A stretch of 52,714 bases of DNA from Thermoplasmatota archaeon. Its GTDB lineage: Archaea > Thermoplasmatota > Thermoplasmata > Halarchaeoplasmatales > Halarchaeoplasmataceae. Location: positions 1 to 52,714 of the forward strand of contig JAGXLI010000006.1 of NCBI GenBank assembly GCA_018334755.1, written 5' to 3'. Shown here piece by piece: positions 24,327 through 52,714 of this stretch (positions are counted from its first letter, which is position 1; every line of letters starts with the position of its first letter). The notes beneath the pieces are model-generated. The model worked only from the letters and a program-made list of their open reading frames with translations, made no database searches and was not told where the DNA came from. The position numbers and the translations under genes are program-made.

Positions 24327-24660
24327 ATCGATAACAGGAGGATACCTGACGGCGCCTATCACCGGCGTGATATTGATCATGATAGGGCTTTACGGCCTCA
24401 TGGTCAAAAGAGACCTGATCAAGCAGGTGATAGCCATAAATATAATCTCACCCGGGGTCGTTCTTTATTTCACCGGTTTAGGATACGTTCCTGAAGGGGA
24501 AGCTCCTCTTCTTGCTCACAGCGAGGTCGTCGATCCTATCCCTGCCGCTCTGATGCTGACCACGCTAGTGATAGATGTCGCCGTAACTGCCTTCGCTCTC
24601 GCACTCATCATAAAGATCGAGGAAATTGACTTAGAAGAACTAGAGGGTGATGAAGATTGA
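24319..24660 (+). CDS. mnhC: Mrp Na+/H+ antiporter subunit C
   Basis: A 113-residue NuoK-like protein with three membrane helices. The TALVID-equivalent sequence TTLVIDVAVTAFALALIIKI and DPIPAALMLT are the NuoK/MnhC signatures. The start is GTG at 24319 with GAGGAGG just upstream. It shares 4 bases with mnhD1. Confidence 0.95.
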   Translation: MIESITGGYLTAPITGVILIMIGLYGLMVKRDLIKQVIAINIISPGVVLYFTGLGYVPEGEAPLLAHSEVVDPIPAALMLTTLVIDVAVTAFALALIIKIEEIDLEELEGDED

Positions 24661-26237
24661 TATCGTTAATCGTGGCCTTACCCATGCTCTTTGCATTTTT
24701 ATCCAGTATAACCGTTTATCTTGATCATGACAGGATATACAATGAAGTGATACTTTTAGCGGGTGTACTTTCCCCGATACCGATCTTTCTTTACAACCTA
24801 GATAACATACCAATTAACAGTGTTCTAGGAGGATGGACCAGGATCTCGGGCATCGAGATCGGTATAAACGGCGTGAACATCTTTTTCCTGCTGGCAACTC
24901 TCATAATATTTCCTCTGGTCGCTTTCTACAGTTTAAGGCACTTTGACAAGTTCGATGAAAAAAGTGGTGACGTGTCTAAAGGTTCAAAATTTTGTCTGAT
25001 CCTTCTTCTTTATGGAGGTATACTTGGCAGTTTCATCACTAGAGATCTATTCAATTTTACTGTTTACATGGAGATAGCTTCGCTCGCCGCGATCATACTG
25101 GTGGGAAGTTCCTCTACAACTGGGTCTAAATTCGCGTCGTTCAGATATCTTATGTTGTACCTTCTCTCATCTTTCTTCTTCATCTTCTCCGTCGGTATAA
25201 TCTACGTTAAAACGGGATACCTCAATTTCCACCTGATCCAACAAAATTTGGTTATGGACACCGAGATCAAAGTCGCTATAAGCGTAGCTTTCACGGCGCT
25301 GATAATGAAAGCCGGCATATTTCCCCTTCACTTCTGGCTTCCCGAGGCACATTCGAAAGCGGACACTCCTGTCAGCGCTCTTCTTTCCGGGATCACGGTC
25401 AAAGTACCGGTATTCGGTATGATATTGTTTCTGATGTACACCCCTATCGATTTCTTGACCGTGCCCTTGATGGTCGTATCATTCAGTTCCATCTTCTTCG
25501 GCATCTTCATGGCGATCTTCCAGACGAACGCAAAAAAACTGTTGGCATACCACACAGTCTCCCAGATGGGTATCGTGTTGTTGGCTATCTCCGTTCTGGA
25601 CACGTACGCAGCGGCTCACTACGCCTTTGCCCACGCACTCTTCAAATCGGGCCTGTTCTTGGGGATCGGAGCTCTTGCATCCTCTCATGAAACTAAAAAC
25701 CTAAAATCCCTCTCTTTCCGCGGCAGTAAACTTTTGATGCTGTCCTTTATGATCCTGAGCCTGGCGATCGGCGGTGTTTCACCTCTGATCGGAGCTTTTG
25801 GAAAACATGAGATATTGACTGAATTGAGCGGGATCACTACCTATCTTCTTTACGCCGCCTCTATAGGCACTTTACTCTCATTCACTAAATTGAATTACGA
25901 GTTATCCAGTCCTAAGAAAGGCGATCACGAGGAGAGGCACGAGTTTTTAGAAAAAGTGATCGTTTTCCTTCTGGCATCATCCACTATAGGATTCGGCATC
26001 CATTATTATCCTAAACTGAATTGGATGGATCTCGTCTTTTTAGGCATAGCTGTCGGTCTCTTTTCAGTTTTGAAATTCTCGAATTTATTGGAATGGAACG
26101 TACCGAGATTCTATGAAAAGGATCTTAAGGGGTTGGGAAAGCAGATCAACTTCTATACCACCGTATTCGTGATTTTGAACAGTTTATTACTTTTCCTGAT
26201 CCTTTTCAGAGATGCCCTCGAAGGATTGTTGTTGTGA
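24657..26237 (+). CDS. mnhD: Mrp antiporter subunit D, copy 1
   Basis: A 526-residue NuoM/N-like ion-translocating subunit with about 14 membrane helices. The helix-5 Glu (YMEIASLAA), the helix-7 Lys (MKAGIFPLHFWLPEAHSKADTP), the HALFK lysine and AYHTVSQMG are all present. The start is TTG 24657. The protein is about 70 percent alike the copy 2 product by eye. The two copies may fill the roles of the MrpA and MrpD antiporter-like subunits; both carry the key Lys and Glu residues. Confidence 0.93.
   Translation: MISLIVALPMLFAFLSSITVYLDHDRIYNEVILLAGVLSPIPIFLYNLDNIPINSVLGGWTRISGIEIGINGVNIFFLLATLIIFPLVAFYSLRHFDKFDEKSGDVSKGSKFCLILLLYGGILGSFITRDLFNFTVYMEIASLAAIILVGSSSTTGSKFASFRYLMLYLLSSFFFIFSVGIIYVKTGYLNFHLIQQNLVMDTEIKVAISVAFTALIMKAGIFPLHFWLPEAHSKADTPVSALLSGITVKVPVFGMILFLMYTPIDFLTVPLMVVSFSSIFFGIFMAIFQTNAKKLLAYHTVSQMGIVLLAISVLDTYAAAHYAFAHALFKSGLFLGIGALASSHETKNLKSLSFRGSKLLMLSFMILSLAIGGVSPLIGAFGKHEILTELSGITTYLLYAASIGTLLSFTKLNYELSSPKKGDHEERHEFLEKVIVFLLASSTIGFGIHYYPKLNWMDLVFLGIAVGLFSVLKFSNLLEWNVPRFYEKDLKGLGKQINFYTTVFVILNSLLLFLILFRDALEGLLL
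24925..25060 (+). repeat. 136-bp perfect direct repeat, copy 1 (in mnhD copy 1)
   Basis: This tract, from TCTACAGTTTAAGG to CTATTCAATTTTAC, is identical base for base to 26711-26846 in the second mnhD gene, including all synonymous positions. Bases immediately outside it differ between the copies. Confidence 0.95.
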
Positions 26238-26440
26238 ATAGATGTGGAGGCATGAAGATCAAAAATATGCGTGCCGGGGAACAAAGGGCGAAACATATGC
26301 TGAGAACGATCCACGAAATGGCTTTCAGGAGAGACATAGTTCCCGTTCTCGACTGCCTCATGTTTGCATCAGACTTCTCTCTATCGATAGGACTGGATAT
26401 CGCCACCCTGGTTAGATCAGTTGGAGGTGAATATAATTGA
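26234..26440 (+). CDS. Small soluble protein of unknown function between the two mnhD genes
   Basis: A 68-residue open frame that starts by overlapping the mnhD1 stop (GTGA) and ends by overlapping the mnhD2 start. Alternative start: ATG 26252. It is charged and helical, with no membrane segment (MLRTIHEMAFRRDIVPVLDC ... LDIATLVRSVGG). I do not recognise it. The overlap at both ends argues that it is translated as part of the operon, but it could be the unpurged junction of the duplication. Confidence 0.5.
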   Translation: MNRCGGMKIKNMRAGEQRAKHMLRTIHEMAFRRDIVPVLDCLMFASDFSLSIGLDIATLVRSVGGEYN

Positions 26441-28011
26441 TTCCTTTGATCGTCGCTCTTCCTATGGTCTTTGCATTTTTACTCAGCACTATCAGTTATA
26501 TAGATACAAACATAGACCGTATTTACAAAGAGGTAATATTTCTAGCAGGAGTACTTTCTCCAATACCGATATTTCTTTACAGTCTAGAAAACTTGCCCAT
26601 CCTCACAGTTTTAGGAGGATGGACCAGGGTCTCGGGTATCGAGATCGGTATAAACGGGATCAATTTTTTCTTCCTCCTGGCAACTCTCATCATTTTCCCT
26701 CTGGTCGCCCTCTACAGTTTAAGGCACTTTGACAAGTTCGATGAAAAAAGTGGTGACGTGTCTAAAGGTTCAAAATTTTGTCTGATCCTTCTTCTTTATG
26801 GAGGTATACTTGGCAGTTTCATCACTAGAGATCTATTCAATTTTACCATCTACACGGAGATAGTCTCACTCGCCGCGATCATACTGGTGGGAAGTTCCTC
26901 TACAACCGGGGCTAAATCCGCATCGTTCAGATACCTGATGGTCTACCTTCTTTCATCTTTCTTCTTCATCTTCTCCGTCGGTATAATCTACGTTAAAACG
27001 GGATACCTCAATTTTCACCTGATTGAACAGAATTTGGTTATGGACACTGAGATCAAAGTCGCTATAAGCGTAGCTTTCACGGCGCTGATAATGAAAGCAG
27101 GCATATTTCCTCTTCACTTCTGGCTTCCCGAGGCACATTCGAAAGCGGACACTCCTATCAGCGCCCTCCTTTCCGGAGTCACGGTGAATGTGCCGGTATT
27201 CGGTATGATATTATTTTTAAGGTATACCTCTATCGAATTTTTGACCGTTCCTTTGATGATCGTGGCGTTCAGCTCCATATTCTTCGGCATCTTCATGGCG
27301 ATATTCCAAACGGATGTGAAAAAACTCTTAGCATATTCAACCGTCTCTCAGATGGGTTTTGTATTACTAGGGATAAGTATTTTGGATATCTATGCTGCAG
27401 GGATTTACGTGTTCGCTCACGCCTTAGTTAAAGCGGCTCTCTTTCTAAATATAGGTATATTGATAAGTAACCAGGGAGAGAAGAACATAGAAAAACTCTC
27501 ATTCGGAAATAGAGGACTGTTGACGATCACTATGATATCACTGAGTTTAGGCATCGGCGGGATCTCACCTTTCCTGGGAGGATATGCGAAATATACCATC
27601 TTGAATAGCTTGTCTAAGTGGAGCTTATATCTATTTTACATCGGGTCTGTAGGCACTCTGACTCTCTTTACCAGGATGAACTATGAGTTATTCGAATTCG
27701 AGACTTCTAAAAAGTTCCGTTTTTCTCTTGAGGAACTTGTTCCCTTCATAGTCGCTCTGTTGACAATAGTTGTAGGGATACATTATCTCCCAAAATTAGC
27801 CATAAAAGACGGCATGTTGGTCGGGATAGCTATCCTCGCTTTTTCCGTATTAAAATACTCAAGATTGCTCGAATGGAACGTACCGAGGTTTTATGGTAAA
27901 GATCCTAGGGAGCTTGGTAAGCAGATCAACTTCTATACCTCTGTCTTTGTAATCACGAACATATCGTTCCTTATGTTCATCCTTAGAGATATACTTAGAG
28001 AATTATTCTAG
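26437..28011 (+). CDS. mnhD: Mrp antiporter subunit D, copy 2
   Basis: A 524-residue paralogue of the upstream mnhD, with the same TTG start context and a strong GGAGGTGA ribosome site at 26425-26432. Key residues are kept (YTEIVSLAA, MKAGIFPLHFWLPEAHSKADTP, HALVK). Differences include loss of one His before the HAL motif (AGIYVFAHALVK against AHYAFAHALFK) and AYSTVSQMG, which is closer to canonical. The C-terminal third diverges most. It is the last gene of the operon. Confidence 0.93.
   Translation: MIPLIVALPMVFAFLLSTISYIDTNIDRIYKEVIFLAGVLSPIPIFLYSLENLPILTVLGGWTRVSGIEIGINGINFFFLLATLIIFPLVALYSLRHFDKFDEKSGDVSKGSKFCLILLLYGGILGSFITRDLFNFTIYTEIVSLAAIILVGSSSTTGAKSASFRYLMVYLLSSFFFIFSVGIIYVKTGYLNFHLIEQNLVMDTEIKVAISVAFTALIMKAGIFPLHFWLPEAHSKADTPISALLSGVTVNVPVFGMILFLRYTSIEFLTVPLMIVAFSSIFFGIFMAIFQTDVKKLLAYSTVSQMGFVLLGISILDIYAAGIYVFAHALVKAALFLNIGILISNQGEKNIEKLSFGNRGLLTITMISLSLGIGGISPFLGGYAKYTILNSLSKWSLYLFYIGSVGTLTLFTRMNYELFEFETSKKFRFSLEELVPFIVALLTIVVGIHYLPKLAIKDGMLVGIAILAFSVLKYSRLLEWNVPRFYGKDPRELGKQINFYTSVFVITNISFLMFILRDILRELF
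26711..26846 (+). repeat. 136-bp perfect direct repeat, copy 2 (in mnhD copy 2)
   Basis: Identical to 24925-25060 in mnhD copy 1. Additional shorter identical blocks follow downstream in both genes, for example about 60 bases around TCTTCTCCGTCGGTATAATC. Confidence 0.95.
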
Positions 28012-28520: not shown

Positions 28521-28768
28521 GTGACATCCTCTCCGCCCTAAACCTAACAGGAAAACGAGGTTTTCCTGTGGTACAGAGGAATTTTGCAAAAAATTCCTCG
28601 AAGGACGGAGCTTCCAGCCTTTCAAGGGGTTCTCCTCCGCTTCACGAGAGTTTTACTCGAGTGTCAGGAGGGACAAGGTTCCTCCGGTGTTCTGACTTGC
28701 TTTGCAGAGGAATTAACATTCCTCTTTATCTACAGGAATACTGATAGTATTCCTTCGATATTTGGAAT

Positions 28769-28786
<18 letters not shown>
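28521..28786 (-). ncRNA. Predicted omega-RNA (reRNA) of TnpB, rich in perfect hairpins
   Basis: The region from the 3' end of tnpB to the element's right end is where TnpB guide RNAs are encoded. It contains at least five perfect stem-loops: 28547-28569 (10-bp stem), 28576-28599 (10 bp), 28706-28725 (8 bp), 28734-28754 (9 bp) and 28761-28786 (10 bp). All have GGAA on one arm and TTCC on the other. The last overlaps the tnpB stop region. The guide would be the bases just past the right end, 28501-28520 on the minus strand. Boundaries and function are inferred from the family. Confidence 0.75.
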
Positions 28787-29845
<1,059 letters not shown>

Positions 29846-51905: not shown

Positions 51906-52166
51906 TCAATCGTAAAATCTTTCTAGAGATTTGTATATATTTTTTCGATGATCTGTAGTAACAACGACCATCTTTTCATCCTCTACAGAGACAATAGCTC
52001 TGTAATCGCCGATTCTTATCTTATGGAGATCGTATCCTTTCAATGGCGATAGATAATGATCGGGAAAATCACAAGCATCTTCTAATTTATCGATTATACG
52101 TTGAGCTATATGATTTTCTAGATCTTCCAGGTCCTTCAAAGCCCTGTCGGTCCACTCGATCTTCAT
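51906..52166 (-). CDS. relE: RelE/ParE-family toxin
   Basis: An 86-residue small protein with the RelE fold pattern: WTDRALKDLEDL helix, then LKGYDLHKIRIGDYRAIVSVEDEKMVVVTTDHRKNIY strands. Family members cleave mRNA in the ribosome or inhibit gyrase. The conserved basic residues (Arg51, Arg55, His78, Arg79 region) are present. It overlaps the antitoxin gene by 4 bases. Confidence 0.9.
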   Translation of the reverse strand: MKIEWTDRALKDLEDLENHIAQRIIDKLEDACDFPDHYLSPLKGYDLHKIRIGDYRAIVSVEDEKMVVVTTDHRKNIYKSLERFYD

Positions 52167-52405
52167 TCTGACGACCCAGTGAATTTCTCTTTTACTTCTT
52201 CATGGGAATAAACATTCCCTTCCTCTATATCTTTTAGACCTTGCTTCATCTTCTCTTCAAACTCTGGTGTGAGCTCTCTTCCATACAATTTATCTCTTAT
52301 CGCATCTCTAGCGAACTCACTAAAACTAGCGTATCCGAGTTCTTCCATGTATTTTTGTAGATCTTCTTCCATCTGTTCGGGTATTTTTACGGGGTGTGCC
52401 TTCAT
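52163..52405 (-). CDS. relB: RelB-like antitoxin with ribbon-helix-helix domain
   Basis: An 80-residue antitoxin. Residues 5-40 (VKIPEQMEEDLQKYMEELG ... SFSEFARDAIRDKL) are a ribbon-helix-helix DNA-binding domain, and the acidic C-terminus would wrap the toxin. ATG 52405 is chosen over TTG 52417. It lies upstream of and overlapping relE (ATGA), the usual order. It should repress its own promoter through the repeats at 52416-52441. Confidence 0.88.
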   Translation of the reverse strand: MKAHPVKIPEQMEEDLQKYMEELGYASFSEFARDAIRDKLYGRELTPEFEEKMKQGLKDIEEGNVYSHEEVKEKFTGSSE

Positions 52406-52415
52406 TTGTATCACC

Positions 52416-52447
52416 AAGTATAGTTAAGTATTACTAAGTATAAAAAT
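52416..52447 (-). promoter_or_regulatory. relBE promoter with three helically phased AAGTAT repeats
   Basis: On the plus strand AAGTAT occurs at 52416-52421, 52426-52431 and 52436-52441, exactly 10 bases apart. The block overlaps a TATA-like element (AATTTTTATAC on the minus strand, about 52439-52449). Ribbon-helix-helix antitoxins bind such phased repeats as operators. Confidence 0.65.
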
Positions 52448-52594: not shown

Positions 52595-52714
52595 CTGCCA
52601 TCCTTTGCGTGCGATTTATCGGAAACAAAGTTTCCGAAAGATATCAGGAACATCTACTGGAAAATCAACGATTTTCCATCGATTCACGGAACGAGTTCCG
52701 TGTAAAGTTCCTGA
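52595..52714 (-). repeat. Terminal multi-hairpin array, probable right end / omega-RNA of a second TnpB element
   Basis: A sequence at 52595-52618 (CTGCCATCCTTTGCGTGCGA...) resembles the TnpB element's right end at 28521. Perfect hairpins follow: 52619-52637 (8-bp stem, AAA loop), 52658-52678 (9 bp, AAC loop) and 52685-52702 (8 bp, GA loop). An 8-bp closing stem pairs 52644-52651 with 52707-52714 and encloses the last two. All stems carry GGAA/TTCC, as at 28547-28786. The associated gene would be to the right, outside the window. Confidence 0.55.

Follow-up and report, generated by a model that had tools for sequence, protein, structure and literature searches.

Double-hairpin elements were reportedly described in the mitochondrial DNA of the fungus Allomyces by Paquin, Laforest and Lang in 2000 and, to our knowledge, are otherwise known from mitochondria. 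In a REP, the GTAG motif stands at the hairpin's 5' foot, and a REPIN consists of two inverted copies of one REP. The palindromic elements of Rickettsia (RPEs) are about 150 bp long and comprise several families. For the Allomyces elements, an absence of flanking duplications has been noted and RNA intermediates have been proposed (PMC2800124). REPINs, or REP doublets, are tiny non-coding units of two palindromes that are believed to be mobilized in trans in the form of folded single strands (PMC3116915); RPEs are palindromic units that insert in frame into protein genes (PMC10969869); and the GC clusters of yeast mitochondria are short hairpin elements subject to rapid substitution, merging and shuffling (PMC4478555).

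Here we describe what is probably a minute, non-coding mobile element of DNA built from two hairpins, two nested copies of which lie at the end of the window, that is, the whole 52,714-nucleotide stretch of archaeal DNA analyzed. In its working, the family most resembles the fungal mitochondrial double-hairpin elements: two adjacent hairpins spanning tens of bases, copies within genes, occupancy that differs between close relatives, and no clear duplication at seven of the eight sites compared. It differs from them in residing on archaeal contigs and in its GGAA/TTCC core, TCGA linker and GTAGA end, and no sequence kinship is claimed. No earlier report of such an element in an archaeal chromosome was found in the open-access literature.

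The other systems are more distant. Like REPINs, the element is tiny, non-coding and built of two palindromes, but identity with REPINs was rejected on the orientation and place of GTAG and because the hairpins do not form an inverted pair of a single REP: their feet differ, and GTAGA stands only 3' of the second hairpin, at one end. The element was not found adjoining Y1 genes, save as an insertion within one. The likeness to RPEs, drawn by description only, consists in one clear in-frame insertion into a protein gene (17 residues in a DUF234 ATPase), whereas the archaeal element is much shorter (~46-63 bp versus about 150 bp). Unlike yeast GC clusters, it is neither GC-rich nor accompanied by putative AG target duplications.

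The hairpin array at the contig end

The window is one entire contig (G000:C71, 1-52714) of a 2.1-Mb archaeal genome assembled in 112 contigs, and the array is cut at 52714 because the contig ends there, an assembly edge and no biological end. All four perfect stems reported in the preliminary description were recovered as inverted-repeat pairs: TCGGAAAC/GTTTCCGA (52619-52637), TGGAAAATC/GATTTTCCA (52658-52678), CACGGAAC/GTTCCGTG (52685-52702), and the 8-bp stem said to close over two inner hairpins, in which TCAGGAAC (52644-52651) indeed pairs with GTTCCTGA (52707-52714; inverted repeat I7). None of 200 shuffled sequences folded equally well (RNA z = -3.8 for the plus strand and -5.2 for the minus strand), and with DNA parameters the 103-nt array gave z = -7.3. 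GGAA is the commonest left-arm tetramer of the window, present in 10 of the 66 perfect stems of at least 7 bp, and nine of these ten stems cluster at 28.5-28.8 kb or 52.6-52.7 kb. The resemblance of the array to the right end of a TnpB element, previously put at 13 of 20 positions, proved to be at chance level: the best match is 14 of 20, and 13 of 20 is also reached at 25 other places in the window. An Rfam scan of the window yielded no family at the gathering score.

Directly to the left of the array, on the minus strand (51906-52417), lie a ParE-type toxin gene and a probable antitoxin gene. An empty site for the window array was sought in G002, where a homolog of the toxin-antitoxin pair is present; the sequence diverges before the array, which leaves this particular copy without an empty counterpart.

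The array is two copies of one double-hairpin element, one of them lodged in the loop that the other's first hairpin forms. The inner copy is complete (52653..52705, minus strand, 53 bp) and reads, on that strand, TTA(CACGGAAC tc GTTCCGTG)AATCGA(TGGAAAATC gtt GATTTTCCA)GTAGA; it matches the covariance model R1 described below with 63.4 bits (E 2.4e-13), this copy itself being among the 39 sequences of the model. The Y1 transposase gene of G000:C110 shows insertion junctions that correspond to the ends of this copy, TTA...GTAGA. The outer copy (52612..52714, minus strand) is truncated where the contig stops, and its predicted continuation is about AATAT. The inner element divides the first hairpin of the outer copy, TCAGGAAC/GTTCCTGA, into arms at 52644..52651 and 52707..52714; the second hairpin, TCGGAAAC aaa GTTTCCGA, occupies 52619..52637. 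The outer copy was recognized from an un-nested, intergenic relative in the same genome (L045, C18:1222-1276), which shares the CGATTTATCGGAAACAAAGTTTCCGA hairpin and the same left part and lacks the insert. Without the inner unit, the sequence would read TCAGGAAC-TT-GTTCCTGA, a tight hairpin of the kind usual in the family, so that the insertion point, T^T, lies in the loop of a GGAAC/GTTCC hairpin. The closed multiloop perceived at the window edge is thus explained by insertion of an element in the hairpin loop of another. A second, independent nesting occurs in G012 (L062), GGAACT^[TTA..GTAGA]^TGTTCC, with junction letters identical to those in the window; from these two cases, hairpin tips may perhaps be favored targets.

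Element architecture and paired arms

The element is a discrete unit of ~46-63 bp with a constant architecture, and its two consecutive hairpins form one unit, as in double-hairpin elements. In the canonical plan, the first hairpin consists of a 3-nt foot, GGAA, a variable arm and loop, TTCC and the complementary foot (nnnGGAA-x-TTCCnnn); the linker, 9 nt counted from TTCC, ends in TCGA; and the second hairpin (WGGAA, variable arm and loop, TTCCW) is followed by GTAGA. Lengths in multiples of three, a sign of adaptation to genes, were looked for and not seen.

The arms vary widely between copies with complementarity maintained. In the 39-unit alignment, 96.1% of the cells are paired, and changes away from the commonest pair are two-sided in 154 cells, compared to 43.8 +/- 5.7 in shuffled alignments, and one-sided in only two; this alignment was drawn from perfect stems and is biased against G-U. 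Because the model units had been picked for perfect stems, pairing was retested on 73 units chosen by the linker and GTAGA only. In this landmark set, complementarity across the first three inner pairs of the second hairpin holds in 79% of cases, against 15% after random re-pairing, and the foot pair varies among T-A, A-T and C-G. Even the GG/CC core changes pairwise, with A-T replacing G-C in 10 of 67 first hairpins. Only about five of the 285 inner positions of the landmark set are G-T pairs, a rarity that hints at a DNA rather than an RNA hairpin.

These patterns bear on two RNA-based readings. One holds that a two-hairpin transcript is copied by a reverse transcriptase and then joined into DNA. 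The prevalence of sites without target duplication is compatible with this route, and the same argument has been made for the Allomyces elements (PMC2800124). However, a structure maintained in RNA would not be expected to have so few G-T pairs in its arms, and a search with the reverse transcriptase profile PF00078 returned nothing in 15 of the 16 genomes of the host family and a stop-bearing fragment in the other, so we consider an RNA intermediate unlikely. The other reading, that the arrays are conserved structural RNAs or hairpins with a regulatory role, such as signals for processing or stability, under selection and that empty sites are deletions, gains from the strong covariation and from the intergenic location of several arrays. 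It is rather improbable, given that protein genes contain copies, which introduce 17 residues or stop codons, that positions are unconserved between sister species, and that some copies sit within the loops and linkers of other copies.

Occupied and empty sites

Eight comparisons of occupied and empty sites indicate precise insertion, seven of them without a clear target duplication; the empty sites come from related species, so that single cases cannot separate loss from gain. Read in canonical orientation, the tnpB gene on C82 is CGGTA^[TATT..GTAGA]^ATCC and is empty in both G003 and G007; a site in G002 (L095), TTCGGA^[TATT..GTAGA]^TGCC, is empty in G003; that on C18, GTAGA^[TATT..GATAAA]^TCG, is empty in G002; one in G012 beside an AbiEii-type gene (L126), ACG^[TTTC..GTAGA]^TG, is empty in G005; and one in G009 (L120) is empty in G007 and G005. 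The DUF234 ATPase gene of G005, TGGTGG^[51 bp]^TATAAG, has an empty homolog in the host genome, and the insert is in frame, its 51 bp adding 17 residues (WW(TRGTRSSVRRNSGNSCR)YKEDEIDIV compared to WWYKEDEIDIV in the host genome); this is the only clear in-frame, stop-free case, and the other genic copies bring stops. The Y1 transposase gene of the host genome (L298, G000:C110:11024-11432), CCCTTTCA^[TTA..GTAGA]^ATTCAGGG, has its frame cut by the element and is uninterrupted in G008. Finally, a 108-bp block in the 3' region of the window's tnpB (28705..28812) is absent from the same tnpB in the sister species G004, and this is the only comparison with a clear flanking repeat (CAGAGG, 6 bp).

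Because the exact ends TTA, TATT or TTTC and GTAGA recur, the double hairpin itself is the unit that differs between genomes. Insertion occurs in either orientation, into genes and intergenic DNA as well as into the linkers and hairpin loops of existing copies, and element positions differ between sister species.

The copies could also be miniature inverted-repeat transposable elements (MITEs), non-autonomous relatives of a DDE-type insertion sequence; several copies indeed lie in or adjoin insertion-sequence genes, and 6-bp repeats surround one block and a related hairpin type. Identity with MITEs was nevertheless rejected and is very improbable: the ends, TTA, TATT or TTTC at one side and GTAGA at the other, form no mutual terminal inverted repeats, and the clean sites show no target-site duplication. 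The 6-bp repeats, at the tnpB block and at the related hairpin type, are unexplained by a scheme without duplication. This related type, a hairpin pair with the linker GAGTAA or GAGTGAG, was observed at L104 (1100-1200), L131 and L132; unlike the canonical element, it has 6-bp repeats, TTGCGT or TTTGTA, on its two sides when compared with L131. Larger repeats with the ends TTATAGTGGA... and ...TTGACTATAA and a terminal hairpin, seen in L041, L097, L104 and L107, host several arrays and are perhaps a MITE-like carrier. Separately, L042 (2440-2585, G000:C70) contains a tRNA-like sequence with two short GGAA/TTCC hairpins in an apparent intron; the model score is weak (14.6 bits). ARAGORN predicted no gene in the tRNA-like sequence of L042, and a tRNA search on five fetched loci likewise gave none.

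Relationship to TnpB genes

Of the two interpretations offered in the preliminary description, a free-standing family of structured repeats and the guide-RNA scaffold of another TnpB gene, the first is borne out and the second is not. When two TnpBs were compared by tblastn to all fetched loci, with flanks of about 1 kb, TnpB homology was found at only four double-hairpin loci (L047, L115, L119 and L129), in addition to the 28-kb tnpB of the window; most loci of the family lack tnpB, and none was found in the 2 kb to the left of the window end. Conversely, two other TnpB copies or fragments of the host genome (L043 and L044) have no such hairpins. The sites of the element are equally DUF234 ATPase, Y1 transposase and DDE transposase genes, intergenic DNA and other copies of the element.

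The window's tnpB does have one complete element at its 3' end (28729..28786, minus strand; R1 66.3 bits, E 4.8e-14, this copy also being among the model's 39 sequences), where TnpB guide RNAs (omega-RNAs) are encoded, and this position is what the omega-RNA interpretation has in its favor. The element is embedded, with further hairpins, in the 108-bp block 28705..28812. Downstream of tnpB, there is also a GGAA/TTCC hairpin pair (28547..28599), in the linker of which G004 carries an additional 51-bp two-hairpin unit that the host genome lacks. On this comparison of sequences, the hairpins near the 28-kb tnpB appear to be insertions too. Such whole-unit differences between species, together with the few tnpB-associated loci, the two hairpin-free tnpB copies and the lack of an Rfam match in the window at the gathering score, make an omega-RNA scaffold barely tenable. 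Hairpin arrays beside tnpB genes thus need not be guide RNAs. Another stretch of the window (24657-28011) encodes two tandem, very similar membrane proteins of 524-526 residues that resemble antiporter or NADH dehydrogenase subunits.

Distribution across genomes

When the window end was first compared with the remainder of its genome, three short matches emerged: one in a tnpB gene on C82, one on C18 and one in a DDE transposase gene on C60. The genome-wide search for GGAA/TTCC stems that had been proposed earlier was run as a scan for the GGAA..TTCC..GGAA pattern and revealed about ten sites where perfect hairpins cluster. From 56 flanking stretches of 15 relatives, 69 hairpin clusters were catalogued. 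A stricter pattern matched each of the 16 genomes in the GTDB family of the host, with at most 13 matches per genome and near zero for the reversed-pattern control; when a strict pattern was run on 390 Thermoplasmatota genomes, only three were positive, namely, the three family members sampled, with the control again near 0. The covariance model R1, built from 39 units, gave 182 matches at E <= 0.01, distributed over 16 of the 16 family genomes (14 matches in the host genome) and one of 25 outgroup genomes. The copy number across the family is 2-30 per genome, counts that depend on the reach of the model, and the genomes are fragmented draft assemblies with many copies at contig ends.

The carrier family belongs to hypersaline Thermoplasmata of the Ca. 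Halarchaeoplasmatales type and includes Ca. Saliniplasma, a member of Ca. Halarchaeoplasmatales, Ca. Haladaptatiplasma and Thermoplasmata MAGs, several of them from lake-sediment sample sets. In a scan of named genomes, pattern matches outside the lineage had non-complementary arms, except on three soda-lake contigs, and the three pattern matches in viral contigs included none with arms complementary beyond one pair. Clear copies were also observed at L186, L205 and L215, on short contigs from similarly named sample sets that bear the labels Mollicutes, Bacteroidales and Aenigmatarchaeota; these are either mis-binned contigs or cases of transfer. In G035, from another family of the class, with five model matches in the genome, L284 (1470-1575) contains alternating GGAA/TTCC hairpins with GTACGA linkers that score 35 bits to the model; given the common GGAA/TTCC core and CGA linker, this array may be a distant relative or convergent.

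Possible mechanism of movement

Because the unit codes for nothing, its mover acts in trans. The element would move as folded single-stranded DNA, with a putative enzyme recognizing the hairpin bases and the GTAGA and TCGA landmarks; candidates are a Y1/HUH-type enzyme or another hairpin-recognizing recombinase. Y1 transposases (IS200/IS605) act on single-stranded DNA hairpins without target duplication. They are encoded in 12 of the 16 family genomes, with an intact gene on G008:C101 for example, and also in outgroups without the element; the sole Y1 gene detected in the host genome is the one interrupted by an element copy, and no such hairpins or element were found at the ends of eight Y1 loci. 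Movement as single-stranded DNA by a putative hairpin-recognizing enzyme in trans is the route that we favor, unproven and with perhaps an even chance of being correct. The free parts of the arms would change in pairs through arm-to-arm copying of imperfect palindromes or, alternatively, because imperfect ones fail to move. A more specific scheme, transposition by recognition of shape, in which an enzyme of a novel family acts on free-arm hairpins without duplication, prefers hairpin tips and leaves arms that are kept by arm-to-arm copying, is conceivable, though doubtful. The element has no evident host function and probably accumulates in dispensable genes.

How double-hairpin elements move is a question standing since their description in mitochondria. 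The present family, which resides in prokaryote chromosomes, makes this movement testable: it offers about 180 copies, nested ones among them, several empty sites with exact boundaries, and carrier genomes whose small size would allow every candidate enzyme to be listed.
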